Assembly (NCBI GenBank): GCA_016719755.1
Contig: JADJYM010000013.1
Span: forward strand, 84,325-148,324
Direction of reading: 5' to 3'
Length of the DNA: 64,000 nt
DNA from: Novosphingobium sp.
Lineage (GTDB): Bacteria > Pseudomonadota > Alphaproteobacteria > Sphingomonadales > Sphingomonadaceae
Shown here one piece after another: positions 9,172-62,971 of this stretch. The notes beneath the pieces were generated by a model. It had not been told where the DNA came from, did no database searches, and worked only from the letters and a program-made list of their open reading frames with translations. Position 1 is the first letter of the stretch, and each line of letters begins with the position of its first letter. The translations under genes and the position numbers were made by a program.

Positions 9172-9960
9172 ATGTCTGCCCTGACTTACGAAACCTCTGA
9201 CCACGTCGCCACGATCACGCTCAACCGGCCGGAGCGGATGAACACCATCTCGCCCGCGATGCTGGACGAACTGTGCGACATGCTGAAGCGGGCCAACAAG
9301 GACGCCGAGGCGCGGGTGGTGGTGCTGACCGGGACGGGACGCGCGTTCTGCGCCGGGCTCGACCTGACCGAAGCTTCGCGCGGCGAGGGGATCGGCGGCG
9401 GCCAGCGCCAGGCGCCCGAAACGCTCGACCTCAGCCATACCCCGCCGACCGTGCTGTTCGACATGGACAAGCCGGTGATCTGCGCGCTCAACGGTTCGGC
9501 AGCAGGTTATGGGATGGACCTGGCACTGGGTTGCGACATCCGGATCATGGCCAATAATGCCAAGCTGGCCGCCGCGTTCGTCAAGCGCGGGGTCCTGCCG
9601 GAAAGCGGCGGCACCTGGTTCCTGCCCCGGATGCTCGGCTGGGCCAAGGCGGCGGAGATCATCTTCACCGGCCGGACGCTGGACGCCGCGCAGTGCCTTG
9701 CCGAAGGGCTGGTCAACGCGGTCGTCCCGGCGGATCAGGTCGCGGCCGAGGCGCGCAAACTGGCGCTCGAAATCGCCGCCAACGCCCCGCTTGCAGTGCG
9801 CGCCGCCAAGCGGATGATGCGGATGGGGCTGGACGAACCGTTCGGCACCCATGTCCAGCACGTCTACCTGCAACTGCTGCCGCTGTTCGCCAGCGAAGAC
9901 TTCAAGGAAGGCGTCGCCTCGTTCCTCGAGAAGCGCCCGGCGGCGTTCAAGGGGCGGTAG
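9172..9960 (+). CDS. Enoyl-CoA hydratase/isomerase family protein
   Basis: Crotonase-fold enzyme of 262 residues. The oxyanion-hole elements are present (GRAFCAGLDLTEASRG and ALNGSAAGYGMDLALGCDIR). Of the two catalytic glutamates of rat crotonase, the first position (PEI in the prototype) reads FVKRGV here, while a Glu is kept in AAEIIFTGRTL; PESGGTWFLPR provides another acidic side chain. This pattern is common in crotonase paralogues whose activity is not simple hydration, so the exact reaction is uncertain. It lies 38 bases downstream of the FAD-linked oxidase and is probably cotranscribed with it. No ribosome-binding site stronger than GAGAG is visible. Confidence 0.9.
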   Translation: MSALTYETSDHVATITLNRPERMNTISPAMLDELCDMLKRANKDAEARVVVLTGTGRAFCAGLDLTEASRGEGIGGGQRQAPETLDLSHTPPTVLFDMDKPVICALNGSAAGYGMDLALGCDIRIMANNAKLAAAFVKRGVLPESGGTWFLPRMLGWAKAAEIIFTGRTLDAAQCLAEGLVNAVVPADQVAAEARKLALEIAANAPLAVRAAKRMMRMGLDEPFGTHVQHVYLQLLPLFASEDFKEGVASFLEKRPAAFKGR

Positions 9961-9990
9961 GGTCAACGCTGCCACTGCATCGCAGAAGGA

Positions 9991-10056
9991 GCAGTCCCTC
10001 CCTGTTTCGCGAAGCGGAATGGAGAGGGGGACCGTCCCGCAGGGATGGTGGAGGGG
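9991..10056. repeat. GC-rich intergenic repeat element (copy 1)
   Basis: Short imperfect palindromic stretch with the pattern TCCCTCCCTG ... GGAGAGGGGG ... GTCCCGCAGGGATGG ... GAGGGGC downstream of the enoyl-CoA hydratase. A related stretch (CCACCTCCCC ... GACAGGGAGGG) lies at 10430-10490, so the two flank the DUF559 gene. Confidence 0.5.
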
Positions 10057-10066
10057 CTGCGGCCAT

Positions 10067-10423
10067 TCACTGCGGCTGTTGGCAAATTCCGATTATGGCC
10101 TGCGCCACATCGACTGGCGATTTCAGGACATCGGCGGCAAAAAACCTGACCACGCGGTAGCCCTGGCTTTCCAGCCAGCAGGTGCGCTGCGCATCTGTTG
10201 TCGGCCTGTCACCCATGTCGTGAGCGCCACCGTCGATTTCTATCACCAGTTTTGCGGCAGGGCAGTAGAAGTCGACAACATAAGGCCCCGCTGGATGCTC
10301 ACGCCGGAACTTGAGGCCGTTGACCTGCCTGAGTTCGCTCCACAGCAGGGCTTCTGGCAGGGGCGGTGCCTTGCGCAGGGCGCGGGCCTTTAGGACCGTG
10401 GCACGGGTGGTCTGGCGTGGCAT
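10067..10423 (-). CDS. DUF559 domain protein (putative endonuclease fold)
   Basis: 118 residues, matching the DUF559/Vsr-like family of small PD-(D/E)XK-fold proteins: an N-terminal basic segment ending in KFRREHPAGPYVVDFYCP, then the acidic core AAKLVIEIDGGAHD, then the C-terminal GYRVVRFFAADVLKSPVDVA. Asp/Glu residues in VVDFYC and VIEIDGG correspond to the predicted metal-binding residues. The start at ATG 10423 has GGAAGGG upstream. It stands alone between two similar GC-rich repeats and has no functional link to its metabolic neighbours. The cellular role of this family is not established. Confidence 0.82.
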   Translation of the reverse strand: MPRQTTRATVLKARALRKAPPLPEALLWSELRQVNGLKFRREHPAGPYVVDFYCPAAKLVIEIDGGAHDMGDRPTTDAQRTCWLESQGYRVVRFFAADVLKSPVDVAQAIIGICQQPQ

Positions 10424-10429
10424 TGGCCC

Positions 10430-10490
10430 TTCCGTCAGCCCTGCGGGCTGCCACCTCCCCATCGCCTGCGGCGACAGGGAGGGTCTTTTC
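10430..10490. repeat. GC-rich intergenic repeat element (copy 2)
   Basis: Imperfect palindromic GC-rich stretch between the DUF559 gene and the 2-hydroxyacid dehydrogenase, with CCACCTCCCCATCGC paired against GCGACAGGGAGGG around a short loop. It resembles the element at 9991-10056. Confidence 0.45.
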
Positions 10491-11655
10491 ACCCTTCCAG
10501 CAGGGCCGCGCGCCCGACATCGCGGGCGTTCGGAATGCCGGTCAGCCCCAGCGCGGTGCGCATGTCCTGTTTGTAGAGGCCGAGCATCCGGGTCAGCGCC
10601 GCTTCGCCGCCGGCGGCCAGCGCCATCACCCACGGGCGGCCGACCAGCGCGGCCCTGGCGCCCAGCGCCAGCGCCTTGACCAGATCCTGCCCGCAGCGGA
10701 TCCCGCCATCGACCAGCAGCGTGGTTTCGCTGCCCACCGCGTCCGCGATGCGCGGCAGCATGGAAGCGGTGGAGGCCGCGCCGTCGAGCTGGCGGCCACC
10801 GTGGTTGCTGACGATCATCCCGTCCGCGCCGACCGCCACGGCAGCGCGGGCGTCGGCCACGTCGAGCACGCCCTTCAGCACCAGATTGCCCTGCCACACC
10901 CCCCGCAGCCATTCGATGTCGGTCCAGGTGACCGAGCTGTCGAACTGGGTGCCGGTCCAGTGCAGGTAGTCGCGCGGGTTCTTTGACTGCTTCACGTACA
11001 TGGCGATGTTGCCGAAGCCATGCGGGGCGCCTTTCAGCCCCACGTCCCACGCCCAGCGCGGGTGCAGCGCATAGTCGAGTGCGCCCGACCGGAAGCGGCC
11101 CCACGGCCCCAGCCCGCCCGCCATGCCGTTGCGGATGTCGCGGTAACGGGTGCCAAGCACCGCAAGGTCGATGGTGAAGGCGAGGGTGCGCACCCCGTTG
11201 TCCCAGGCGCGGGCGAGGATTTCCTGCACGATCCCCCGGTCCTTCAGCATGTAGAGCTGGAACCAGGCGGGCCGGTCGGACACCGCGCCGACTTCCTCCA
11301 GCGTGCAGATACCCACGGTGGATAGGCAGAAAGGGATGCCCGCTGCGTCAGCCGCGCGCTTGGCCTGCACTTCGCCGCGCCGCGCGGTCATCCCGCCCAT
11401 GCCGACGGGGGCGAGGATCAGCGGCATGGCCAGCTTTTCGCCGAACAGATCGACCGAGCAGTCCATCTTCGAGGCGTCGACCAGCACTTTCTGGTTCAGG
11501 CTGACCTCTTCCCAGTCTGCGGTGTTGCGGCGCAGGGTCACTTCCGCGCCCGCGCCGCCATCGATGTAGTCGAACAGGAAGCGCGGCAGCCGCTTCTCCG
11601 CCTCGCGCCGGAAATCGGCGAACGAGGCGGGAAGGAGGTTGAGCGACTGCCCCAT
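10489..11655 (-). CDS. lldD: FMN-dependent alpha-hydroxyacid dehydrogenase (L-lactate/mandelate dehydrogenase family)
   Basis: 388 residues, full length for the family, oxidising L-2-hydroxyacids to 2-oxoacids with FMN. Visible motifs: LILAPVGMGGMTARRGE near the FMN phosphate site, CLSTVGICTLEEV, and the catalytic block IVSNHGGRQLDGAAST with its active-site His and Arg. LLVDGGIRCGQDLVKALALGA and GRPWVMALAAGG complete the barrel. The start codon overlaps the stop of the upstream ThDP enzyme (TGATG), so the two are translationally coupled. Whether the substrate is lactate, mandelate or another 2-hydroxyacid is not visible; the coupled partner suggests its 2-oxoacid product may be decarboxylated or ligated. 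Confidence 0.9.
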   Translation of the reverse strand: MGQSLNLLPASFADFRREAEKRLPRFLFDYIDGGAGAEVTLRRNTADWEEVSLNQKVLVDASKMDCSVDLFGEKLAMPLILAPVGMGGMTARRGEVQAKRAADAAGIPFCLSTVGICTLEEVGAVSDRPAWFQLYMLKDRGIVQEILARAWDNGVRTLAFTIDLAVLGTRYRDIRNGMAGGLGPWGRFRSGALDYALHPRWAWDVGLKGAPHGFGNIAMYVKQSKNPRDYLHWTGTQFDSSVTWTDIEWLRGVWQGNLVLKGVLDVADARAAVAVGADGMIVSNHGGRQLDGAASTASMLPRIADAVGSETTLLVDGGIRCGQDLVKALALGARAALVGRPWVMALAAGGEAALTRMLGLYKQDMRTALGLTGIPNARDVGRAALLEG

Positions 11656-13202
11656 CAGAGCATGGCTTCGATCAGGCGCGGCCCCTTGTGGGCGAGTGCC
11701 TCGACCAGTGCGGCGCGCAGTTCCTCTGCCGTTTCGACGCGGACGGCTGGCACGCCCATGCCTTCGGAAATTTGCGTCCAGTTCAGCCCCGGATTGCGCA
11801 AGTCGAGCATCGACAGCGCCTTTGGTCCGGGGTTCTGCACACCCACCCGCATCAGTTCGATGTTGAGGATCGCGTAGGAGCCGTTGTTGAGAATGATGGT
11901 GGTGACGTCGAGCTGCTCGCGCGCCATCGTCCACAGCGCCTGGTTGGTGTACATGCCCGAGCCATCGGCCTGGAGCGCGATCACCTTGCGGTCCGGGCAG
12001 GCGACTGCCGCGCCCACTGCCAGCGGCAGGCCCTGGCCGATGGCCCCGCCGGTCAGTTGCAGCCAGTCGTGCTTTGCCGCGCCCGCGCACATGCTGAAAG
12101 CCGCGCCGCCGGAGGTGGCGCTTTCATCCGAAACGATGGCGTTTTCGGGCAGCAGTTCGCTCAGGATCGCGCCGATGTTGGCCGAATTGAGCTTGCCCGG
12201 ATCGGCCTCGAAGCGGGTGGGTGCCTGGATCAGGGCTGGCTCGGCAGGGGCGTTCAGCGCTTTGGCAAGGCCAGCGAGCGCCGCCTGCGCATCCTCGCGC
12301 AGCGAGGCCAGCCGCACCAGCCGCGAATCCGGTGGCGAAAGGAAGCTGGGCTTGCCGGGATAGGCGAAGAACGAGACCGGCGGTTCGGTGCCGCAGAACA
12401 CGATGGCCTTGAAATCCGCGAGGTAGCTTTCCGCCATTTCGCCGAAATAGGGCAGCTTTTCCACCGCGACCCGGCCCGCGCCGCGCTGGTGACGGGTGAC
12501 AAAGGTTTCGGCGATCAGCCGCGCCCCGGTGGCCGCCGCGATCCGTCCGGCCTCCACCAGCGCCTCCTCGCGCAGCGCCCGCCCGCCCAGGAACAGCGCC
12601 TTGGGGCCTTCCACTTCGCTGAGCACGGCGGCGGCATCGAGGATCGCCTGGGCGGGCGCGCGCGGAGCCGGGGCTGCGGGCCGGGCGGCGGCGGGGGCGG
12701 ATCCTTCGGTCCAGGCGTGGTCGGCAGGGACGATCACCGTTGCCACCTTGCCCGGATAGGACTGGGCGACCGCAAAGGCCTCGGCCCCGGCCTGGGCAAG
12801 ATCGCGCTCGGAGTTGGAGACCCGCACCCAGTCCGACATCGGCCGGGCCACGCCCGCCGCGTCCGATGTCAGCGGTGCGTTGTAGTGCAGGTGATAGGTC
12901 GCATGGTCGCCGACCATGTTGATGACGGGCGAGCCTGCGCGGCGTGCATTGTGCAGGTTGGCAAGCCCGTTGCCCAGCCCCGGGCCAAGGTGAAGCAGGG
13001 TGACTGCGGGCTTGTCCGCCATGCGCCCGTAACCGTCAGCCGCGCCGGTCACCACGCCTTCGAACAGGCCCAGAATCGCGCGCATCCCGTGCTGGCGGTC
13101 AACCGCCGCGACCAGTTGCATTTCCGACGTGCCGGGGTTGGCGAAGCAGACCTCAACCCCGTGTGCGTAAAGCGTTTCGATAAAGGCTTCGGCCCCGTTC
13201 AT
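11655..13202 (-). CDS. ThDP-dependent enzyme, acetolactate synthase large subunit-like
   Basis: 515 residues with three-domain ThDP-enzyme architecture. The N-terminal domain has GVEVCFANPGTSEMQ and the activating Glu in LGLFEGVVTGAADGYGRM (about residue 49). The C-terminal ThDP/Mg site is QADGSGMYTNQALW through IILNNGSYAI (DG ... NN motif). Members of this subfamily are annotated as acetolactate synthase large subunits but lack a small regulatory subunit partner, and none is encoded here. Coupling to an FMN 2-hydroxyacid dehydrogenase resembles the mandelate-to-benzoylformate-to-aldehyde logic (dehydrogenase plus decarboxylase), so a 2-oxoacid decarboxylase is a reasonable alternative. Function unresolved. 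Confidence 0.8.
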   Translation of the reverse strand: MNGAEAFIETLYAHGVEVCFANPGTSEMQLVAAVDRQHGMRAILGLFEGVVTGAADGYGRMADKPAVTLLHLGPGLGNGLANLHNARRAGSPVINMVGDHATYHLHYNAPLTSDAAGVARPMSDWVRVSNSERDLAQAGAEAFAVAQSYPGKVATVIVPADHAWTEGSAPAAARPAAPAPRAPAQAILDAAAVLSEVEGPKALFLGGRALREEALVEAGRIAAATGARLIAETFVTRHQRGAGRVAVEKLPYFGEMAESYLADFKAIVFCGTEPPVSFFAYPGKPSFLSPPDSRLVRLASLREDAQAALAGLAKALNAPAEPALIQAPTRFEADPGKLNSANIGAILSELLPENAIVSDESATSGGAAFSMCAGAAKHDWLQLTGGAIGQGLPLAVGAAVACPDRKVIALQADGSGMYTNQALWTMAREQLDVTTIILNNGSYAILNIELMRVGVQNPGPKALSMLDLRNPGLNWTQISEGMGVPAVRVETAEELRAALVEALAHKGPRLIEAML

Positions 13203-47272: not shown

Positions 47273-47307
47273 TCCACCGCCCCTCCCCCTCTCGGGGCGG
47301 GGGGCCC

Positions 47308-47408
<101 letters not shown>

Positions 47409-49514: not shown

Positions 49515-50436
49515 ATGCAACTGGCGCAATCGTTGGATTCGATCGGCAAGCGGGCTCTGGCCGGCTATCTCGCGCTGTGGGGTGCAAGCACGGCCTATCT
49601 TGCCCTGCGCGGCGCCGACTGGACCTTTCCGGTCGTCTCGCTGCTGCTGTTCGCCTGCACCTTTGGCGCCCTTGGCTGGTTCCTGACCCGCAAAAGCGAT
49701 GCGCCGCCGGTGGCGGTTACCGCGCCGCGGTTTCAGGTTGCCGTGCTGCTGGCATATCTGGCGATTTATGCCTTCGTGCTGGTCGGCTGGGGGCTGGGCG
49801 CGATCAAGGAGCTGGTGCCGCCCGGCGCGATGCGGGAATGGCTGGTGCTGGCCTACAAGCTGCTGATCCACGTCGCCTTGCCCGCCGCGCTGATTGCCTG
49901 GGCGGGCGGCGCGCTGGCCGATACGTTCGATCCGGGCCTGCGCCGCAAGGGCGTGGTTCCGGCCTTGCTGATCCTGTCGGGCCTGATGTTCGGCCTGCTT
50001 GCCGTGGTCTCGCCATCGCTGGCCGAACTGGCGGAACTGGGCGTGACCGGCGGTGCGATCCTGCCCCTGGGTGCTTGCCTCGTGGCTGTGGATGGCGATC
50101 GAGGCGGGGCTTTGCGAGGAATACCTGTTCCGGGCCGGCCTGCAATCGAGTCTGGCTGCCTGGCTTCGGTCACCGCTGGCCGCGATCCTGATCGCCAGTG
50201 TGATCTTCGCGCTGATGCACTGGCCGGGACTGTACCTGCGCGGCGGACCCGGGACCGACGGCTGGTCGACCGATCCGCTGGAGGTTGCGGCATTCTGCAT
50301 CGCTTCGCTCTCTCCCATCGCGGTGCTGTTCGGCGTGCTGTGGGCACGCACGCGCAGTCTGCTGCTGCTGATCATGGTGCACGGTGCGGTCGATGCCCTG
50401 CCGAATGCCGCCGGGATGATTCGCGCTTTCACCTGA
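49515..50436 (+). CDS. CPBP-family intramembrane metalloprotease (one frameshift)
   Basis: Polytopic membrane protein of about 306 residues once one frameshift near 50070-50085 is corrected. The N-terminal part (MQLAQSLDSIGKRALAGYLA) has several membrane helices; the C-terminal part, in another frame, carries the CPBP/Abi signatures EAGLCEEYLFRAGL (EExxxR) and ALMHWPGLY, with a final VHGAVDALPNA. CPBP proteases process membrane-bound peptides or act in immunity to bacteriocins. The break is the first of many downstream and is probably a base-calling error. Confidence 0.8.
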
Positions 50437-50551: not shown

Positions 50552-51978
50552 ATGACGCATTCGCCCTCGTCGTTTGACGAGATGCTTGAGCCCGATGGTT
50601 CGGTCCGGCCTGCCTATGCCGGCTATCGCGAATGGTATGACGCGCAGGACCCAGCCGCGCTGCGCCGCAAAGGGAGCGAGGCGGAAGGGTTCTTCCGCAA
50701 GACCGGCATCACCTTCAACGTCTATGGCGACGATGCCGGGGAAGAGCGGCTGATCCCGTTTGACATGGTCCCCCCGGATCGTCACGGCGCGCGAATGGCG
50801 CCGCCTGTCGCGCGGGATCGAGCAGCGGGTGCGGGCGCTCAACGCCTTTTGCATGACATCTACCACCGTCAGGAGATCGTGCGCGCAGGCCGCGTGCCGC
50901 AGCGCCTGATCGCGGAGAACGCGGCCTTCCTGCCGGAAATGGTCGGCATGGTCCGCCCGGCGGGGTCTTTACCCACATCGTCGGGATCGACCTGGTCCGC
51001 ACCGGGCCGGACGAATTCATGGTGCTGGAAGACAACGCGCGCACGCCGTCGGGCGTTTCCTACATGCTGGAAAACCGCGAAACCATGATGGCGATGTTCC
51101 CGGAGCTGTTCACCCGGGTGAACGTGCGCCCGGTGCAGGACTATCCGCGCCGCCTGGCCAAAAGCCTGGCCGCCTGCGCCCCGGCCATGGCCGGGGAACG
51201 CCCGGTGGTCGCGGTGCTGACGCCCGGCATCTACAATTCGGCCTATTTCGAGCATGCCTTCCTGGCCGACCAGATGGGCGCGGAACTGGTCGAGGGATCG
51301 GACCTGCGGGTAGTCGACGGGCGCGTCGCGATGCGCACCACGCGCGGGTACGAGGCGATCGACGTGCTGTACCGTCGGGTCGATGACGAATTTCTCGATC
51401 CGCTGACCTTCAACCCCGCGAGCGTCCTGGGCGTGCCCGGGATCATGGACGTCTACCGCGCGGGCGGCATCACCATTGCCAATGCGCCCGGCACCGGGAT
51501 CGCCGATGACAAAGCGATCTATTCGTTCATGCCCGAGATCGTCGAGTTCTACACCGGCGAAAAGCCGATCCTCTCCAACGTGCCGACCTGGCGCTGTTCG
51601 GAAGCGGACAGCCTGGGCTTCGTGCTCGACAACCTGGCCGATCTGGTGGTCAAGGAAGTCCACGGATCGGGCGGTTATGGCATGCTGATCGGCCCGACCT
51701 CGTCGAAAAAGGAAATCGCCGCCTTTGCCGCCAAGCTGCGCGCCCGGCCGGAAAACTACATCGCCCAGCCGACCCTGGCGCTGTCCACCGTGCCGATCCT
51801 GACCAAGGCGGGGCTTGCCCCGCGCCACGTCGATCTGCGGCCGTTTGTGCTGGTCAGCCCCAACGGCATCGACATCACGCCGGGCGGGCTGACCCGCGTC
51901 GCGCTCAAGCAGGGGTCGCTGGTGGTCAATTCCTCGCAGGGCGGGGGCACCAAGGATTCGTGGGTGCTGGAGGATTGA
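50552..51978 (+). CDS. Circularly permuted ATP-grasp protein of the Anbu locus (frameshifts)
   Basis: About 475 residues after correction of about three frameshifts (near 50780, 50860 and 50970). The N-terminus (SSFDEMLEPDGSVRPAYAGY) and the NVYGDD segment are typical of the DUF404/DUF407 family, followed by RRLSRGIEQRVRALNAFLHD and VLEDNARTPSGVSYMLENRE. The second half is intact and shows VVDGRVAMRTTRGYEAIDVL, LVVKEVHGSGGYGMLIGP (ATP-grasp nucleotide site) and TPGGLTRVALKQGSLVVNSS. Predicted to ligate a carboxylate to an amine or to build a peptide. It overlaps closely with the alpha-E gene, 16 bases downstream. Confidence 0.85.
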
Positions 51979-51994
51979 TGCCCGGAGATCGCAC

Positions 51995-52938
51995 ATGCTA
52001 GGCCGCACCGCCAACGGCGTCTTCTGGATGGCCCGCTATCTCGAACGGGCGGAAAACACCGCGCGCCTGCTGGATGCGGGCTTCCGCATGGCCATGACCC
52101 GCGACTATCTGACCAGCGAGGCCGAATGGCGCTCGCTGATCGAAACGGTCGGCATGACCCATGCCTATGAGGCGGCGCATTCCAGCTATACCGGGGTGCA
52201 GGTGTGGAACTTCATGCTGCGCGACAAGGCCAACCCCGGCAATGTCCTGGCCATGATCGAGGCGGCGCGGACCAACGCCCGCGCGGTGCGCACCGCGCTG
52301 ACCCGCGAGGTGTGGGAGGCGGTCAACGAAAGCTGGATGCTGCTGAAGGAGGCGATGGCCCGCCCCGTGCGCGAGGCTTCGCTGGGCGAGGTGCTGTCCA
52401 CCGTGCGCCGCCAGATGACGCTGGTGCGCGGGGCGATGGAAGGATCGATGCTGCGCAACGAGATCCACAACTTCACCCGCCTGGGCACCTTCATCGAACG
52501 CGGCGACAGCACCGCGCGAATCCTTGACGTGAAGTATTACGTGCTGCTGCCCTCGCTCGCCTGGGTCGGCTCCAGCCTGGACAACGTACAGTGGGAATCG
52601 GTGCTGCGCTCGGTCGCGGGGGAACGTTCCTATCGCTGGCTCAACGCCGGTTCGATGGACGCGCGCGGAATCGCGGATTTCCTGCTGCTCGACCAGCGTT
52701 TCCCGCGCAGCCTGGCCTTCTGTATCGACAAGCTGCGATCAAACCTGCGGGGCCTGGCGCACGAATACGGGCACGAGACTTCGGCCCATGAAAGCTGCGC
52801 GCGCTGGGCACGCGGTTCCACGAGGCAACCATCGAATCCGTGTTCGAGGGCGGCCTGCACGAATTCATCCAGGAGTACATCGCCCGCACCGCCGGGTGGC
52901 ATTGGCGATCGAACAGGATTACCGGTTTTACGCCTGAT
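51995..52938 (+). CDS. Alpha-E (DUF403) protein of the Anbu locus (frameshifts)
   Basis: About 314 residues. The N-terminal MLGRTANGVFWMARYLERAE and RLLDAGFRM, together with NFMLRDKANPGNVLAMIEAA and VRRQMTLVRGAMEGSMLRNE, define the helical alpha-E domain, rich in Glu/Arg pairs. It is intact until about 52795; frame changes near 52800 and 52898 break the last 45 residues, whose correct reading ends in FEGGLHEFIQEYIARTAG ... DYRFYA. The corrected stop overlaps the transglutaminase start (TGATG). Partner of the ATP-grasp protein; biochemical activity unknown. Confidence 0.83.
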
Positions 52939-53753
52939 GCGCCTGAAAATCGAACATACCCCGCTTTACGACTTTTCGCAGCCGGTCGCGCACGGGCTGC
53001 AGCGGCTGCGCCTGACGCCCAAGTCGACCCACGGCCAGCACGTGCTCGACTGGCGGATGGACCTTTCCGGCGCGCGGCCCGAAACCGAATACGACGATCA
53101 CAACCACAACCGCACCACGCTGGTTTCCGGTCGATGCCGGGGTCAGCCGGGTGGAAGTGCGCTGCACTGGCACGGTCGCCACGGCGGACAACCACGGTGT
53201 GCTGGGGCCGCATACCGGGCTGATGCCGATGTGGGCGTTCCTTGCCCAGTCACCGCTGACCCGGCCGGGGCCGCGCGTGCGCGCGATCGCGGCGCGGCTG
53301 ACCGAGGGCCGGGACAGTCCGCTGGCCATGCTGCACCAGCTTTCGGCGCTGGTGCTTGAGCAGGTCGCCTATGCGCCGGGCGAGACGCAGGTCCACACCT
53401 CGGGCGAGGAAGCGGCGGCGCTGGGGCCAGGGGTCTGTCAGGACCATGCCCATATCTTCATCGGCGCGGCCCGCTCGCTGGGGGTGCCCGCGCGCTATGT
53501 CTCGGGCTACCTGATGATGGACGACCGGATCGAGCAGGAGGCCGGCCACGCCTGGGCCGAGGCCTGGCCCAAGGATCTTGGCTGGGTGGGCTTCGATATT
53601 TCCAACGGGATCAGCCCGGACGAACGCTATGTCCGCGTCGCCACGGGGCGTGACTACCGCGAGGCCGCGCCGGTCACCGGGATCAGCTGGGGGGCGGGGG
53701 ATTCGGTGCTGCAAGTGCGGCTGGCGGTTGAACAGCAGGCGGCAGAGCAGTAG
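52937..53753 (+). CDS. Transglutaminase-like cysteine peptidase of the Anbu locus (one frameshift)
   Basis: About 272 residues. An N-terminal beta domain (MRLKIEHTPLYDFSQPVAHG and RLRLTPKSTHGQHVLDW) precedes the transglutaminase core with the catalytic triad: Cys in GPGVCQDHAHIFIGAARSLG, His in EAGHAWAEAWPKD and Asp in GWVGFDISNG. One frame change near 53133 separates the N-terminal 65 residues from the rest. Proteins of this type next to ATP-grasp and alpha-E genes are thought to cut or form isopeptide-like bonds. Confidence 0.87.
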
Positions 53754-53799
53754 CTGCGCGCTTGCTTCGCATCCCGCGCCTCGTCATGGCGGCGCGCGG

Positions 53800-53865
53800 C
53801 AGTAATCGAAGGTGTGACAAGATCGATTGCCACGGGGCTGCGCCCTCGCAATGACGAAGGACGGG
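53800..53865. repeat. Degenerate CATTGCGAG-type repeat
   Basis: Remnant of the REP family (GATCGATTGCCACGGGGCTG ... CCCTCGCAATGACGAAG) between the transglutaminase and Anbu genes. Only the right arm is clear; errors in this part of the assembly make the rest uncertain. Confidence 0.45.
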
Positions 53866-53877
53866 GCTGAAACACAG

Positions 53878-54632
53878 TGACCTATTGCGTAGGGATGATG
53901 CTGGACCGGGGCTGGTGTTGATGAGCGACACCCGCACCAATTCGGGCGTCGACAATATTTCCACCTTCCGAAAGATGCACCACTGGTCGGTGCCGGGCGA
54001 GCGGTTGATCACCTTTGATGACGGCGGGCAACCTGGCCACCACCCAGGCCGTGATCAGCCAGCTGGAAGAGCGCAACAAGGCCCCTTCCGAGCGGCACAA
54101 TTCGCTGCTCGAAGCGCCCTCGATGTTCAGGTCGCCTCGCTGGTGGGCAAGCTGCTGCGTGATACGATTGCCGCGTCCGGACGCATCGAACGGCGAAGTG
54201 GCGGGGACGGGCACGTTCACCGCCTCGATCATCGTTGCCGGACAGATCGCGGGAATGCAGCCGCGGATGTTCCTGATCTATCCCGAAGGCAATTTCATCG
54301 AGGCAAGCTTCGACACGCCGTTCTTCCAGATCGGCGAGACCAAGTATGGCCGCCCGATCCTGCTGCGCGGCTATTCGCGCGACATGAGCTTCGAGGACGC
54401 GGTCAAGCTGCTGATGGTCAGCTTCGATTCGACCATCAAGGCGAACCTGTCGGTCGGGATGCCGCTCGACCTGCTGGTGGCCGAGCGTGATACTTTCGAA
54501 CCGGTTCACGCCCGCCGGATCGGGCCGGACAATCCCTATTTCCATGCGATTTCGGTAGGCTGGAGCGAGGCGCTGAAGCTCGCCTTCGAAAGCCTGCCGG
54601 ATTACGGTTTCTACCTGCCGAAGGATTCCTAG
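53878..54632 (+). CDS. Proteasome-type peptidase Anbu (frameshifts)
   Basis: About 250 residues after correction of about four frame changes (near 53905, 54025, 54130 and 54185). It begins at GTG with TYCVGMMLDRG, giving the N-terminal Thr nucleophile after Met removal, and continues SDTRTNSGVDNISTFRKMHH, which is diagnostic of Anbu, the ancestral proteasome-like Ntn hydrolase. The second half (AGMQPRMFLIYPEGNFIEAS, FFQIGETKYGRPILLRGYSR and DLLVAERDTFEPVHARRIGP) is intact. It forms ring-like or helical assemblies in studied species; substrates are unknown. It is the fourth gene of the ATP-grasp/alpha-E/transglutaminase locus. Confidence 0.87.
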
Positions 54633-55436: not shown

Positions 55437-55520
55437 TTGACAAGCCGGCGCGCGGCTCTACCTGCGGCCCCGGGCCACGCGGTCCCAACGCCGCGCGTGC
55501 TCTCTGCAAGGAGAGACTAC
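55437..55520 (+). ncRNA. Candidate serC RNA motif with ribosome-binding site in a hairpin
   Basis: Upstream of serC are three consecutive hairpins: GGCCCCGGGCC (about 55466-55476); CGCGG ... CCGCG (55478-55494); and CTCTC ... GAGAG (55500-55515), whose right arm contains the AAGGAG site of serC at 55521. A TTGACA box (55437-55442) may be the -35 element. This arrangement fits the serC leader motif described in alphaproteobacteria. Identity is tentative; the ligand, if any, is unknown. Confidence 0.5.
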
Positions 55521-56656
55521 ATGACTGCACCTACCCCGGCTCGCAAGCCTGCGCGCCCGTTCTTCTCTTCCGGTCCCTGCGCCAAGCCGCCCGGGATACT
55601 CCCCAGCTCGCCACCGAATGCCTTGGCCGCTCGCATCGCGCGAAGATCGGCAAGGAACGGCTCGCCTACTGCATCGATTTGATGCGCGAGGTGCTGCAGC
55701 TGCCCGAGACCCATCGCATCGGCATCGTGCCCGGTTCCGATACCGGCGCCTTCGAAATGGCGATGTGGACGATGCTCGGCGCTCGCGGCGTCACGGCGCT
55801 TGCGTGGGAAAGCTTCGGTGAAGGGCTGGGTGACTGACGCCGTCAAGCAGCTCAGGCTCGAACCCAAGGTCCACCGCGCCGACTACGGCCAGCTGCCCGA
55901 TCTGTCGAAGGTCGATTTCGCCGATGACGTGCTGTTCACCTGGAACGGCACCACCAGCGGCGTGCGCGTGCCGGACGGCGAATGGATCCCTGACGACCGC
56001 GAGGGCCTGACCTTCGCCGACGCCACCAGCGCGGTCTTCGCCTACGACATTCCGTGGGACAAGATCGATGTCGCCACGTTCAGCTGGCAGAAGGTGCTGG
56101 GCGGCGAGGGCGCACATGGCGTGCTGATCCTTAGCCCCGCGCGGTCGAGCGGCTGGAACACTTCACCCCTGACTGGCCGCTCCCAAGGTGTTCCGTCTGG
56201 TCTCCAAGGGCAAGCTAGCCGAGGAGGGCGTGTTCAGGGGGAGACGATCAACACCCCTTCGATGCTCGCGGTCGAGGACGCGATCTTCGCGCTCGAATGG
56301 GCGAAGTCCGTCGGCGGGCTCGAAGGACTGAAGGCGCGCTGCAACGCCAATGCGGCAGCGCTCGGCAAGATCGTGTCCGGAGCGGACTGGTTGAGCCACC
56401 TGGCCGAGCGACCCCGCCACCCGCTCCAAGACTTCGGTCTGCCTGTCGGTTGCGGGTGCCGACGAGGATTTCATCAAGGGATTCCCGGCGCGCTCGAAAA
56501 AGCAGGGCGCGGCCTACGACATCGCGGGCTACTCGTGACGCGCCCCGGGGCTTCGCATCTGGTGCGGCGCAACCGGTCGACACCGCTGATATCGAGGCGC
56601 TCGGGCCGTGGCTCGACTGGGCCTACGCCGAGCCCCATGCCGCCTCTAATGTCTTT
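55521..56656 (+). CDS. serC: Phosphoserine aminotransferase (frameshifts)
   Basis: About 375 residues once at least five frame changes (near 55590, 55820, 56145-56220, 56420 and 56540) are corrected. It converts 3-phosphohydroxypyruvate to phosphoserine with PLP. Recognised pieces: [91 protein letters not shown] (PLP Lys), [19 protein letters not shown] and [19 protein letters not shown]. The start at ATG 55521 has AAGGAGAG upstream. serA follows, so serine biosynthesis is clustered. The breaks look like sequencing indels. Confidence 0.88.
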
Positions 56657-56660
56657 CATC

Positions 56661-56764
56661 GCCCTCGCTCCCCCGAAAGCGGGTTGGGAGAGGGAAGCAC
56701 CCCCCAAAGCTATGGGGGCAGGACCCTCTCCCGGCTCCGCTCCTTGCAGGGGACGAGGGAAAGG
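56661..56764. repeat. C/G-rich repeat between serC and serA
   Basis: CGCTCCCCCGAAAGCGGG, CACCCCCCAAAGCTATGGGGGC and ACCCTCTCCCGGCTCC form imperfect hairpins in the 115-bp serC-serA gap, resembling the C/G-rich repeat cluster at 45997-46121. Confidence 0.5.
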
Positions 56765-56771
56765 AATAATC

Positions 56772-58350
56772 ATGACCAAGCCCCAGGTACTCATCAGCGA
56801 CAAGATGGATCCCAAAGCCGACGCGATCTTCAGGAACGCGGCAGCGACGTCGATGTGATCTACCGCCACACACCAGGAACAGCTGATCGCGATGATCGGC
56901 GCCTATGACGGCCTCGCCATCCGCTCGGCCACCAAGGTCACCGCCGACGTGCTGGCCGCCGCGACGAACTTGAAGGTCGTCGGCCGCGCCGGGATCGGCG
57001 TCGACAATGTCGACATTCCCGAGGCGTCGAAGAAGGGTGTCATCGTGATGAACACCCCCTTCGGCAACAGCATCACGACCGCCGAACATGCGATCGCGAT
57101 GATGTTTGCTCTCGCCTCAGCAGATCCCCGAAGCCAACCGCCAGACCAGGCGGGCAAATGGCCGAAGAACGTTCATGGGGTCGAGGTGACCGGCAAGACG
57201 CTCGGCCTGATCGGTGCCGGCAATATCGGCAGCATCGTCGCCGCGCGCGCTGGGCTTGCCGAAGAAGGTCGTCGCTTTCGACCGTTCCCGACTCCCGGAC
57301 GCGCGGTCGAACTGGGAGTTGAGAAGGCCGATCTGGACACCTTGCTCGCCCAGGCCGATTTCATCACGCTGCACACCCCCTGACCGACCAGACGCGCAAC
57401 ATCCTTGCCGGCAGAGAACATCGCCAAGACGAAGAAGGGCGTGCGGATCATCAACTGCGCACGCGGCGGCTGATCTGACGAGGCGGCGCTCAAGGAGGTG
57501 CGCTCGGATCCGGCCCAGGTGGCGGGCGCCGCGCTCGGCGTGTTTGCGCAGGACCGCCCCGGCCAGGGATCAGCCGCTGTTCAGCTCCCGAACTTCATCT
57601 GCACACCGCATCTGGGGCCTCGACCGACCAGGCTGCAGGTCAATGTCGCGACGCAGGTGGCCGAGCAGATGGGCGATTATCTGGTACGCGGCGGCGTCGC
57701 TAATGCGCTTAAGTGCCCAGGCTGTCGGCCGAGAGCCGAAGCTGCGCCCCTACCATCGGCCCTGGCAGAAGCTCCGGCCTCGATGGTCGGGCAGCTGATC
57801 GCCTTGCACGACAATGCGTTCGGTCCAGGGTGACAGAGGTGCAGCCGGACTCAACCTCAAGCCGATCACCGCCGCGGTGGTCACCGGCCTGATGCGCCGT
57901 TTTCAGACAGCGTGAACATGGTCACGCTCCGCACCTTGCGCGCAGACGCGGCTCGACGTGCGCGAAGTCGCCATGACCGCGAAGGTGGCGACTATCACCA
58001 CGCTCGTCCGCGCCAACTGCAACCGACCCCATATGGCGACGTTGGGTTGCCGACACGCTCTTCAGCACGCCACGGGAGCCGCGCCTCGCGATGTCCCAGG
58101 GATCCAAGGTCAGGCCGACACTGGCGGCGACACCTGTATATCCTCAGACGAGGACGCTCCGGATTCATTGGCCGCATCGGCACCGCGCTCGGCGACGCCG
58201 GGATCAATTTCGGCACCTTCACGCCTCAGCCGCCGTGCAGCTGGTGGTGAGGCGGTGTTGCCTGCTGTCGCTCGATTCGCGCAATGCCCGGCCGCTTGCT
58301 GTGCCAGCTGTAGCATCCCGGTGTCAAGCGAAGATGGTGGGCTGCGGTCC
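56772..58350 (+). CDS. serA: D-3-phosphoglycerate dehydrogenase (many frameshifts)
   Basis: NAD-dependent first enzyme of serine biosynthesis, long form of about 525 residues. Pieces in order: TKPQVLISDKMDPKADAIF, YDGLAIRSATKVTADVL, LKVVGRAGIGVDNVDIPEAS, VTGKTLGLIGAGNIGSIVAA (Rossmann motif), VELGVEKADLDTLLAQADFI, RIINCARGG, TPHLG-type FICTPHLGPRP, and a C-terminal ACT domain recognised by GFIGRIGTALGDAGINFGTF. The end near 58350 is approximate. At least eight frame changes occur. The start at ATG 56772 lies after a purine-rich GAAAGGAA. Follows serC. Confidence 0.85.
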
Positions 58351-58513
58351 TTCGCGCTGTATTGTTGTCGTGGCGGGCGACGTCAGGTTACATCTACCGT
58401 GAGAGGACGCAGGACGACATCTCGGCCTCGTGAAAGAGTGACCAAGGCCTTCTTCGGGTTGTTGCATCCCGTTTTCGGACCCGCCTGGAAAGCCACTTGC
58501 AGGGCCGAAGGCC

Positions 58514-59640
58514 CTGAACACCACGGACCTGCTGCCCGAAGGGCTTGACGATCGCTCCCCGCCAGGCGGAAGCCGCTTCGCGCGTCACGCGCGCGCTCGT
58601 CGATGCGATGGCGCACGGCTATGCCCGGGTGTCGCCGCCGCTCGCCGAGTTCGCGAAACGCTGGCTTTCAGCGGCAATGACGGATCCGCACCGCCGCGAT
58701 CTGCTGCGCTTTACTGACCCGGTGTCGCAGCGCACCCTCGCCCTGCGCCCCGACACGTCCCCCGGCAGGTCGGCCGCATTGCCTCGACCTGCCACCGGGC
58801 GCGCCGCGGCCGCTGCGTCTTTGTTACGCCGGACAGGTGGTGAGAGCAGCGCGACCAGCCGGATCCGCCGCGCGAGATGCTGCAGGTCGGCGCCGAAGTT
58901 GATCGGCAGCGACAGCGTGGCAGCGGCGCGCGAATCGTCGGCGTCGCGATTGACGGGCTCGAAGCTGCGAGGATCGGTCCTGTCACGATCGATTTCACCC
59001 TGCCGGACCCTGGTCGATCTGCTGGCAAATGGCCCGCTGCCCGTCGAGGACGGCAGACGTTCAGCAGCCGTGCGCGGCGAGCTCGACGCGAAGGAGCCGC
59101 GCGCTGACCCGGATGCGGCGCCGCGGCTTATCTGCCGCTGCTGCGCGCCACCGGGCCGTTCGATCGCCACGGATGCGCGCCTTGCCGCGCACGACAGGCG
59201 GCGGTTCTCGGCGCGCATCGACGCGCTCGAAGCGATCGCCGCGCCCGTGCGCGACCGCGTCACGTTGACGCTCGACCCGACCGAGCGCCACGGTTTTGCC
59301 TATCAAAGCTGGTTCGGTTTCCAGATTTTCGTTCCGGGGCAAGGCGACGCGGTCGGCCGCGGCGGCGGCTATGCGATCCCGGTCGGCGAGCAGGAAGAAG
59401 CCGCGGTCGGCTTCTCGCTCTATCCCGATCGCCCTGATCGACGCCGGGCTTGCGCCCAGGACGACACCCCGCCGTATTCCTGCCCGCCCCGCGTCTGGCT
59501 CTGGCCGGCGAGCCCACTGCGCGCCGTGATTGGCAGACGGTGGCTGGCCCTCTCGGATGCCGGCGATGCGCGGACGCTGGAGCTGTGGGTGGCGGCTTGG
59601 GCCGATGGGCCGGACGCGCTGAAGGAAGGCCGACCTGGGT
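58514..59640 (+). CDS. hisZ: ATP phosphoribosyltransferase regulatory subunit HisZ (many frameshifts)
   Basis: HisRS-like regulatory partner of short-form HisG in histidine biosynthesis. The start appears as CTG at 58514 (NTTDLLPEGLDDR); ATG would be expected, so a miscalled base is possible. Pieces: AEAASRVTRALVDAMAHGYA, ARVSPPLAEF, FTDPVSQRTLALRPDTS, LCYAGQVVRAA-like segment, EMLQVGAEVDRQ, RVTLTLDPTERHGFAYQSWF, GFQIFVPGQGDAVGRGGGYA, PVGEQEEAAVGFSLYPD. The HisZ fold retains the synthetase-like motif 2/3 region but not tRNA binding. Continuous frame only from 59215 to 59425. Boundaries approximate. Confidence 0.8.
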
Positions 59641-60233
59641 CGCTGCTGCGAGCGAAGATCAGGGCAGCGGCGGGCGTCACGCAGCCGGGCATCGCGACTT
59701 CGCCCGATGCCGACCGGGACGGTTGACCAACCGCCGTGCCGAAATCAAAAAAATCGGCTTTATCCCGGAAAGCGCAGCAAGCCTGTTGATCCCGGCGGAT
59801 CAGCAGCGTGATGTCGAGCTCGACCGGCGCCTGTCCGTGCACCCCCAGGCTCGTAGGTCAGCCAGGTCGTCATCGGAGGAGAACGAGGCGCGCGCAGGCC
59901 GGGCCGCAATCGGGCGACGACAGCGGCGTGCGGTGCGCCAGGAAATGCCAGCTTCATTTGGGCGATCCGGTTGCGGCCCGGCAACGCCTCGGTCATCGGC
60001 CCGACGAACAGGATCGTTCGGGCCATCCCGCCAAATCTTGCGCGCGCCGCCAGCGGCAGGTCGCCTCACTGGGTCGTATAGATCTGGGCGTGATCAGGGC
60101 AGTCTGGGTCTGTCATGGTGACCGTGGACAGTCTTTCTTCATCATGCCGACCAGCGGGACCAGCGCCGACGCCGTCGCTGGACCCCGATCAAGACAAGGG
60201 GAGGGGATTATCCCTGTCGCTGCCCGTCTGCTA
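59641..60233. other. Unresolved segment between hisZ and the alpha/beta hydrolase
   Basis: 593 bases in which no protein family can be recognised with confidence. On the minus strand, short open stretches such as MARTILFVGPMTEALPGRNR and DDDLADLRAWGCT (about 59800-60070) look coding but are broken repeatedly. Indel density here is high enough to hide a real gene of about 150 residues. Confidence 0.4.
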
Positions 60234-61250
60234 GGTTGGCAGGCATCTGAGTGCCCGGGTTAGCCAAGCATCGACCGTCGCCGTCGCGGCATAGGTCGGA
60301 TCACCCAGGCTACGGTTGATTTCGGCATGCCTTCGGCCCTTCGCCGGGGAAGCTGCAATCTCGACGCGGCTGCCGCCCGCGATCGGTGCACGTTCAACGC
60401 CTCGCCTGCCGAACGCCATCCGGCCGCTGGACATAGACGAACAGCAGAAGTCGGCGCGTTGGGCGCCGCGGCATGCGCGGTCGGGAGACAACGGCCTTTG
60501 CCGCGCCGGATCGAGTACCGAACGCCTGCGTAGGTCTGCTGCCGGGCGGGCCATCCTTCGTCTGCGGGTCTGGCGCGTCGGCGCGCCGTCGATGGGGATC
60601 ACCCCGGCGATGTCGGCGAACGGCAGCCGGCGCTGTTCAGATAACGCTCGTCGGTCGCCAGCGCCACCAGATGCGCGCCGCGCGCCCCCCACGGCCACGA
60701 TCCGCCGCCGATCGATCCCCAGTGCGGTCGGCACGATCGACCAGGGTCTTTACCGCGCCCGCGACATCGGCCGCCTGCTGCTCGACCGTCGCGGCGGGGA
60801 CCGGGCGATAGTCGAGCAAGGCAGGCAGCTCTCGCGCCGGATAATGGTCAGGCTTGAAGCGCCGGTGGCATTGTCCTTGCTGCCGCGTTTCCACCCGCCG
60901 CCATGGACTAGCGCATTGGCGCCGCTCGGCTCGCGCACCCTTGGCGGGCCGATATCAGCTGCAACGGATCCGCTTCCCATAGGCTATCGTTTCGTGCGCG
61001 GGATCTTTGCTCCTTCGGCGGCGCCCATTCGTTCGGCCACTCGCTCGCGCAGGCGGTCGCCAGTTTTCCGCGCGCATCGCTCCTTCCGGCATGCCGCGCT
61101 GGCCGCACGGCGGTCCCGCCAACAGGCCGATCAGTTTCGCTTGCGCATGTCCATACCTCCATCGCCCCCGGCGCCGGCCCTTTGTCCAGCGCAAATGTCC
61201 CAAATTCATCCCAGCGCGCTTGCCTCAGCGCCGACACGGCTAGCCGCGCC
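60234..61250 (-). CDS. Alpha/beta hydrolase, esterase-like (many frameshifts)
   Basis: Fragments in several frames line up as one alpha/beta hydrolase of about 300 residues on the minus strand: ETIAYGK with [22 protein letters not shown] (oxyanion-hole HGGG motif), [32 protein letters not shown] (nucleophile elbow, damaged), [13 protein letters not shown], and the C-terminal catalytic His in [19 protein letters not shown] followed by [10 protein letters not shown]. The HGGG motif suggests the BD-FAE/carboxylesterase group. Substrate unknown. Boundaries approximate. It is antisense to the neighbouring amino-acid and purine genes. Confidence 0.65.
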
Positions 61251-61282
61251 GGCGCAATGGCCTCGTTCAGCAGGACAGCATC

Positions 61283-62444
<1,162 letters not shown>

Positions 62445-62448
62445 TCCG

Positions 62449-62971
62449 GTGCGGCGGCGGCGCTTCCTGGCACTGGGCGTGGCGGGACTGGCGCTGTCGA
62501 CCGCCCTGCTGCTTAAGCCGCTTACGAACCAGGCCGTGCCGCCGTTCGGGCCGATCGACCGAATTGTCGGAAGAAGGCCGAACGGCGGATGGAACTGTGG
62601 TCCGCCGGGCGTATGGTCCACGCGATGGAAGTGTGGCGCTGGGCGATGCGCCTATCGGCCACAAGCAGTTCGAAGGCGATGAAAAGACGCCCGAAGGCCG
62701 CTATGTGATCGACTATCGCAATCCTGAAAGCTCCTACCACCCTCTCTCGCTGCGTATCTCCCATCCGACCAGGCCGCGATCACCCCTTGCCGCGTCGCAG
62801 GGCCGCAGCCCCGGCGGCGAGATCTTACATCCACGGCCAGCCCTACGAGCGCCCGCGGCCGCTGCCTGCCCGGTGACTGGACCGACGGCTGCATCGCCGT
62901 GTCGGACGAGGAGATCCGGGCGTTGTGTAAAAGTGGTCGCGGCTGGCACGCCGGTGGAAATCTATCCCTGA
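62449..62971 (+). CDS. L,D-transpeptidase family protein (frameshifts)
   Basis: About 175 residues. It starts at GTG 62449, four bases after the purA stop, with a signal-like N-terminus ([20 protein letters not shown]). The YkuD/ErfK catalytic domain is seen in pieces: [55 protein letters not shown]-like segment and the active-site block [16 protein letters not shown] with catalytic Cys. It cross-links peptidoglycan or attaches proteins to it in the periplasm. Frame changes near 62570, 62790-62830 and 62920 are probable errors. The stop is at 62971. Confidence 0.85.

Follow-up and report, generated by a model that had tools for sequence, protein, structure and literature searches.

The transglutaminase-like protein (TG) of the Anbu operon usually carries a glutamine-rich C-terminal tail whose very last residue is glutamine. 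The operon from which we describe this tail lies at 50552-54632 on the + strand of a 64,000-nucleotide stretch of a Novosphingobium sp. contig (JADJYM010000013.1), hereafter the window, and runs in the order ATP-grasp ligase, alpha-E protein, TG and Anbu, a proteasome-like hydrolase. It is near certainly an Anbu-1 operon, a known kind, from a Novosphingobium-like bacterium. The initial annotation of the window had held this locus to be its best candidate for an undescribed system, which does not stand: the four-gene operon has already been published, together with a possible role in peptide synthesis or tagging and the question of what its substrate is (PMC5666114 and PMC6376114, both of which credit Iyer 2009). 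The same annotation called the association known and its substrate and chemistry not established, in agreement with these two papers. The new result worth following is the tail on TG and not the window locus, which is ordinary for its genus and known in kind; we found no paper on the TG glutamine tail in the openly licensed literature searched. PMC8665760, PMC3710099 and PMC13207237 yielded nothing on what the operon does. Anbu has been argued to lie close to the root of the proteasome (PMC5666114), and the tail offers a concrete candidate substrate for its operon.

The TG of four-gene operons usually ends in glutamine

Among 64 TG proteins sharing less than 75% identity, 52 have glutamine as their last residue, and the last 15 residues hold a mean of 4.03 glutamines, where the composition of the body would predict 0.61. 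Terminal glutamine was found in 0/13 ATP-grasp, 2/56 alpha-E and 3/41 Anbu proteins, and in 48 of 664 background open reading frames (ORFs), which were called in six frames, so that some may be non-coding. Sorting by gene context gave 188 TG rows, 153 of them from four-gene operons; L008 was excluded by hand from the class with a fused ATP-grasp-alpha-E, as the fusion there is a frame break. TG ends in glutamine in 121 of the 153 four-gene rows, in 34/42 at <60% identity and in 13/17 at <50%, and we use the <60% figure because some rows came from the same genomes twice. Where ATP-grasp, alpha-E and TG (the core) stand without an adjacent Anbu, 7 of 14 TG rows end in glutamine, three of these 14 coming from Anbu-bearing genomes; for core operons from genomes with no Anbu match the count is 6/11.

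The tails that end in glutamine come in 13 different lengths in the <60% set, reaching 14 to 61 residues past a common core point. When 70 disjoint closest TG pairs with unequal tail lengths were compared, glutamine ended both members in 47 pairs, one in 12 and none in 11, and many pairs with neither end glutamine still carry glutamine repeats. The terminal codon is CAA or CAG and all three stop codons follow it (36 TGs, taken from an earlier, cruder context class); such variety at the nucleotide level suggests selection on the protein. A second assembled copy of the operon, on the contig we call C14, provided an intact TG for AlphaFold2 modelling (predicted local distance difference test score, pLDDT, 96.1). 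In this model the final strand stops at residue 266 of 271, leaving the terminal residues beyond it, and confidence drops at the end.

Glutamine-rich C-termini are not confined to TG. Under a rule of at least four glutamines in 20 residues, 25 of 50 core units pass, against 7.2 by chance, with the tail on TG in 18, on alpha-E in 6 and on ATP-grasp in 1. Glutamine-rich stretches lie near the C-terminus of alpha-E in L198, L199, L200 and L207, and of ATP-grasp in a Tsukamurella locus (L254). Plasmid-borne loci from outside the set in which the tail was first seen were compared as well. TG ends in QQQ in the four-gene plasmid operons of Aeromonas and Limimaricola; the Azospirillum plasmid locus has no TG and its alpha-E ends in SQSQ; the Acidithiobacillus plasmid locus has no standard TG beside alpha-E; and that of Granulicella is of the fused type, without a tail. 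The tail is usual in four-gene operons, not universal.

The alpha-E protein has a C-terminal feature of its own. A [DEQN][YF][RKQ][FY] motif occurs near its C-terminus in 118/169 Anbu-type loci, 3/20 Anbu-less loci and 0/9 fused ones.

Anbu is nested within carriers of a three-gene core

The four genes stand in order in 16 of 17 same-genus loci, the remaining one lacking TG, and in 87 of 100 loci from a wider set (the 80 highest-ranking of a longer scan plus 20 chosen ones, some cut by contig ends), which puts the gene order far beyond chance. SerC and SerA follow downstream in 11 of the 17 same-genus loci. An Anbu match is present in 37/37 members of the genus (own genome included; two matches partial) versus 3/24 genomes of the order's other genera.

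Across 299 evenly drawn Pseudomonadota genomes, Anbu was detected in 102 and alpha-E in 156: both in 101, Anbu only in 1, alpha-E only in 55 and neither in 142. Anbu was called here by an Anbu-1 profile, so carriers of Anbu-2 may be undercounted. We compared stretches from 20 of the 55 Anbu-less genomes and long stretches from 59 of the other 101 Anbu-bearing genomes. ATP-grasp adjoins alpha-E in all 20 Anbu-less loci examined; a TG-like ORF is present in the stretch in 16 of them and directly follows alpha-E in 11. Beyond the core, any further ORF family of at least 80 amino acids is shared by at most 7 of the 66 loci compared. Because the core persists without Anbu, and Anbu is nested in core carriers, Anbu looks like an add-on hydrolase of the ATP-grasp/alpha-E/TG core and not its centre.

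Several loci depart from the common layout. The same-genus locus without TG (L063, G010, 9199-12630) has ATP-grasp, alpha-E and Anbu with no TG found between, perhaps a natural loss of TG. Two loci of the same order (L060 and L061; G054 and G059) hold Anbu-2 genes, and their 18 kb stretches showed no core gene. In L186, L240, L242, L244, L248 and L252, Anbu sits in large and divergent gene clusters whose TG is long or cut and which also have a fused ATP-grasp-alpha-E and a separate ATP-grasp or alpha-E; the complete TGs among them have no glutamine tail. The Anbu proteins of L127, L132 and L143, labelled Sulfopaludibacter, Acidimicrobiales and Gammaproteobacteria, share 63 to 67% identity with the alphaproteobacterial query, which sits oddly with these labels, and binning errors are possible.

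The tail as a candidate acceptor

Transglutaminase-fold cysteine enzymes act on amides, and N-terminal nucleophile (Ntn) hydrolases with an N-terminal threonine cleave them. ATP-grasp enzymes activate carboxylates and form amides. Part of this chemistry of the three families is described in PMC6376114. Because a conserved terminal glutamine is a possible substrate for all three chemistries on the operon's own protein, we consider the TG tail as a candidate acceptor, within the operon itself, for ligation or amide exchange, with Anbu cleaving the product. Judged from sequence, this is a possibility we put forward tentatively, short of calling it probable.

In such a scheme ATP-grasp, alpha-E and TG would make up the core and Anbu an added hydrolase. 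TG, as a Cys-His-Asp enzyme, would deamidate or transamidate tail glutamines. ATP-grasp would activate a carboxylate (the tail C-terminus, or a glutamate made from glutamine) as acyl phosphate and couple it to an amine, alpha-E may serve as a helical scaffold, and Anbu could hydrolyse the amide or isopeptide product through its N-terminal threonine. The system might then store or recover amide nitrogen, its genes being nitrogen-controlled in P. putida and B. cenocepacia. Our data show the gene set, the nesting of Anbu among carriers of the core, the conservation of the tail and a promoter signal at some non-sphingomonad loci; we infer every chemical step here, as well as the tail being a substrate. 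A fuller version would make the TG tail (in some lineages that of alpha-E or ATP-grasp) a built-in tag, primer or carrier for an amide-linked product, would have Anbu first cleave that product and not whole proteins, and would tie the cycle to nitrogen limitation in many carriers. Taken with all its parts, this version is unlikely.

The nitrogen link comes from published expression data and from promoters. In P. putida, PP_2685 and PP_2688 are up by log2 4.44 and 3.99 on nitrate versus ammonium (PMC8050072), and PP2685, PP2686 and PP2687 are listed with 11.1, 6.6 and 7.1 under nitrogen limitation (PMC3325844). In B. cenocepacia, I35_5080-83 depend on sigma54 and NtrC, and the cluster also has a large TG (PMC5491218). 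We scanned upstream of ATP-grasp with a sigma-54 consensus to which we gave weights of our own. Near-perfect sites were found in 24 of 80 non-sphingomonad loci, a set that includes Anbu-less loci and five plasmid loci, and in 0/80 on the reverse strand, in line with the published nitrogen control.

A number of observations weigh against the tail as acceptor and against a general nitrogen link. TG ends in glutamine in 0/9 cases after a fused ATP-grasp-alpha-E and in 0/6 of the large TGs, and 8 of the 42 four-gene TGs at <60% identity have no terminal glutamine. Half of the core units (25/50) have no tail that passes the four-in-20 rule. On pSymB of S. meliloti 2011, where the stretch compared holds no Anbu, the TG tail is glutamine-rich and ends in asparagine, and outside Pseudomonadota only one of four three-gene plasmid loci has a TG with terminal glutamine (Hymenobacter, ending in QQQQ; the TGs of Deinococcus, Tsukamurella and Paenibacillus lack it). 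A glutamine-rich tail could be a mere disordered docking or solubility tail. At the threshold used, 56 of the 80 non-sphingomonad loci have no sigma-54 site, and among sphingomonad-type loci the count upstream of ATP-grasp is 0/79, with one site on the reverse strand. The C14 copy scored at best 6.7 of 14.7, below the threshold of 12.7 for a -24/-12 promoter. Since sphingomonad-type loci show no sigma-54 signal, we do not carry the nitrogen link over to the window organism. In the published work Anbu cleaved no tested peptide and the operon proteins formed no complex that was found (PMC6376114).

The pull-down behind that last result used Anbu as bait and a TG with a C-terminal FLAG tag, and detected no specific interaction among the operon proteins (PMC6376114). 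Such a tag would cover the free terminal glutamine, which is one reason why an interaction may have been missed. The Yb ATP-grasp does release phosphate from ATP (PMC6376114).

Other readings of the operon

Anbu may instead be a processive protease that acts on damaged or tagged proteins when nitrogen is limiting, with the ligase marking substrates and the other proteins assisting, as in pupylation. Anbu binds epoxomicin and MG132 at Thr1 and forms an open ring, and of the two roles, degradation and peptide synthesis, Fuchs et al. prefer the former (PMC5666114); the raised expression seen when nitrogen is limiting or supplied as nitrate (PMC3325844, PMC8050072) would also suit a protease of this kind. 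It fits poorly with the lack of peptidase activity of Anbu on the standard substrates tried (PMC5666114, PMC6376114), with the rarity (7 of the 66 loci at most) of any accompanying ORF family of at least 80 amino acids, an unfoldase included, and with the many core operons that have no Anbu. We consider it a rather unlikely account.

A free small peptide or amide metabolite, made by ATP-grasp and edited or degraded by the TG-like protein and Anbu, is a proposal credited to Iyer 2009. It draws on ATP-grasp chemistry and on 3N6X, the solved relative of the C14 ATP-grasp (E 2.9e-190), which carries the name putative glutathionylspermidine synthase. A metabolite leaves the conserved protein tail on TG unexplained, and we rate this proposal as rather improbable.

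The tail might also bind a partner and never be modified, as a docking or regulatory tail like that of HslU for HslV. That the conserved position is the very last residue is what would be expected if a free C-terminus is read, and an HslU-like groove has been noted in Anbu (PMC6376114). Low-complexity repeats of glutamine or of Ser-Gln do not resemble a docking motif, and Anbu cannot be the sole dock, because 6 of the 11 TGs from genomes with no Anbu match end in glutamine. We regard pure docking as improbable, and prefer, tentatively, the tail as the operon's own acceptor.

The four genes of the window locus

Start and stop coordinates (table 1) and Pfam matches confirm the initial annotation in placing four partners in order on one strand. 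The window pieces match PF14403 for ATP-grasp (E 5.3e-128, profile 83-374), PF04168 for alpha-E (E 4.4e-79), PF08379 and PF01841 for TG (E 9e-14 and 2e-23) and PF00227 for Anbu (E 5e-6); the Anbu piece 53885-54490 and the upstream piece 49515-50435 gave no Pfam match. The junctions had been described as overlapping or short, which holds for ATP-grasp/alpha-E (16 bases) and alpha-E/TG (overlap) and fails for TG/Anbu, where 123 bases contain an interspersed repeat. Its 19 genome matches are itself, its counterparts on C14 and C15 (a third contig of the assembly) and 16 other partial ones.

Table 1. Coordinates of the features discussed, in window positions.
Feature	Position	Strand	Remarks
Circularly permuted type 2 ATP-grasp ligase	ATG 50552 to stop 51978	+	PF14403 on open pieces; at least two frames
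Alpha-E protein	ATG 51995 to stop 52938	+	PF04168; C-terminal part out of frame in window copy
TG	ATG 52937 to stop 53753	+	PF08379, PF01841; split over two frames in window copy
TG catalytic codons	Cys 53436-53438, His 53547-53549, Asp 53595-53597	+	
TG glutamine-rich C-terminal tail	53727-53750	+	window reads ..LAVEQQAAEQ, last residue Gln
Interspersed repeat occupying the TG-Anbu gap	53756-53876	no strand	19 own-genome matches
Anbu, proteasome-like Ntn hydrolase, Anbu-1 type	GTG 53877 to stop 54632	+	several frames in window copy
End of contig C13	45406-64000		collinear with C14:1-18366 (same assembly); a redundant contig end that bears errors

The TG triad and the N-terminal threonine of Anbu, both pointed out in the initial annotation, are readable in the window. 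Across 66 aligned TG sequences H204 and D220 are invariant and C167 is kept in at least 90%. With this triad the protein fits the transglutaminase-like superfamily; a transamidase activity would be a prediction, and the enzyme could equally be a protease or amidase. Anbu starts with GTG ACC (Met-Thr); T2 and D18 are invariant in 11/11 aligned sequences and K33 is present in the seven Anbu-1 rows. The S1 pocket of the C14 Anbu reads T21, F31, T49, L53 and T56 (Met counted), against T20-F30-T48-L52-S/T55 in the mature numbering published for Anbu-1 (PMC5666114; T55 in PMC6376114). As both the S1 pocket and the Ntn residues match, we assign the window locus to the Anbu-1 type. Sequence searches with the C14 Anbu found the solved relatives 5loy, 5nyj, 5nyf, 5nyw and 5lox, and an open-ring dodecamer would be the assembly expected of an Anbu-1 protein. 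The AlphaFold2 model of the C14 alpha-E (pLDDT 92.1, predicted template modelling score 0.91) gave no convincing solved relative.

The broken frames of the window copy are most likely assembly errors

Each of the window's four genes is divided between at least two frames, with profile positions falling in different ORFs (ATP-grasp 2-138 and 135-475; alpha-E 1-270 and 269-300; TG 1-64 and 64-271; Anbu 12-103 and 47-245). The locus is assembled three times in the genome: at the end of C13 (the window), on C14 (23 kb) and at the start of C15. These breaks, the three copies and 11 single-base indel differences from C14 within the genes would suit a decayed duplicate or pseudogene. Other observations tell against it. 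TG (271 amino acids) and Anbu (251) are intact on C14. ATP-grasp and alpha-E share one open frame there owing to a break right at the ATP-grasp 3' end, and the window copy is in frame at that point. Of the coding mismatches between window and C14, 29/36 fall at third codon positions (ATP-grasp and alpha-E 11/12, TG 5/10, Anbu 13/14), homopolymers account for 6 of the 11 indels, and a 3 kb piece inside C13 has no second full copy.

On these grounds we rejected decay of the locus, a reading that we hold to be very improbable. The initial annotation had named true frameshifts as the sign of a decayed locus; as far as this could be tested here, with TG and Anbu intact on C14, decay is not borne out. 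The frame breaks of the window copy are most likely assembly errors, and true decay of the locus is very improbable. To judge by its relatives, the operon is near certainly functional in the species, with frames damaged only in this assembled copy.

Divergence between window and C14 per 250-base bin is 0 to 2.4% over 49.5-54.5 kb, 7 to 18% over 48.5-49.5 kb and 6 to 26% over 55.5-62.5 kb. Mismatches of the C15 operon are near-even over codon positions (46/59/64, 17/16/16 and 12/20/12) and fade away from the C15 start; they are best read as sequencing errors. The three assembled copies are most probably redundant ends of contigs, which may stem from two closely related strains; as the window differs from C14 mainly at third positions, the sample may hold a second strain or allele.

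Two neighbouring regions also stand out. At 47303-47407 two long G runs flank a short A/C-rich stretch in a bin about 30% mismatched to C14, which looks like an assembly or read artefact. At 55500-62500 (compared with L008/L011), which holds SerC, SerA and HisZ, the 6 to 26% per-bin divergence from C14 shows mixed codon-position bias; being far above that of the operon, it is perhaps a mosaic of real divergence and contig-end errors.

Comparison with known systems

The closest known system is the Anbu-1 operon, with which the window locus shares the four genes, their order and strand, the S1-pocket residues and solved Anbu and ATP-grasp relatives. There is no difference in gene content; the window lineage differs in that no sigma-54 promoter was found, and its assembled copy is frame-broken. 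Loci with a fused ATP-grasp-alpha-E and a large transglutaminase (L200, L204, L257) have the same domains, and some fused-type loci carry both forms, some of these also Anbu. Their TGs have no terminal glutamine (0/9 and 0/6), unlike those of four-gene operons.

In the Pup-proteasome system a PafA/Dop-type ligase of glutamine-synthetase fold acts with Pup, a small tag protein with a C-terminal GGQ or GGE. The likeness to the Anbu operon lies in a C-terminal glutamine as possible ligation point, a ligase and a hydrolase of proteasome fold. The Anbu locus differs in having an ATP-grasp and not a glutamine-synthetase-like ligase, as judged at the locus only, and in its open Anbu ring with no AAA partner recurring at the loci. 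No recurrent family that could be a separate tag gene was found among ORFs of at least 80 amino acids, shorter ORFs lying outside the survey. The analogy in logic to pupylation drawn in the initial annotation is unproven. The conserved C-terminal glutamine of TG is one Pup-like trait, and it appears in no openly licensed paper searched.

LysW-LysX, with its carrier protein, RimK and TTL tailing offer a further comparison, being cases in which ATP-grasp enzymes act on a protein C-terminus. In the Anbu operon the candidate tail belongs to an operon enzyme, and the ATP-grasp, for which such an activity would be a prediction, is circularly permuted.

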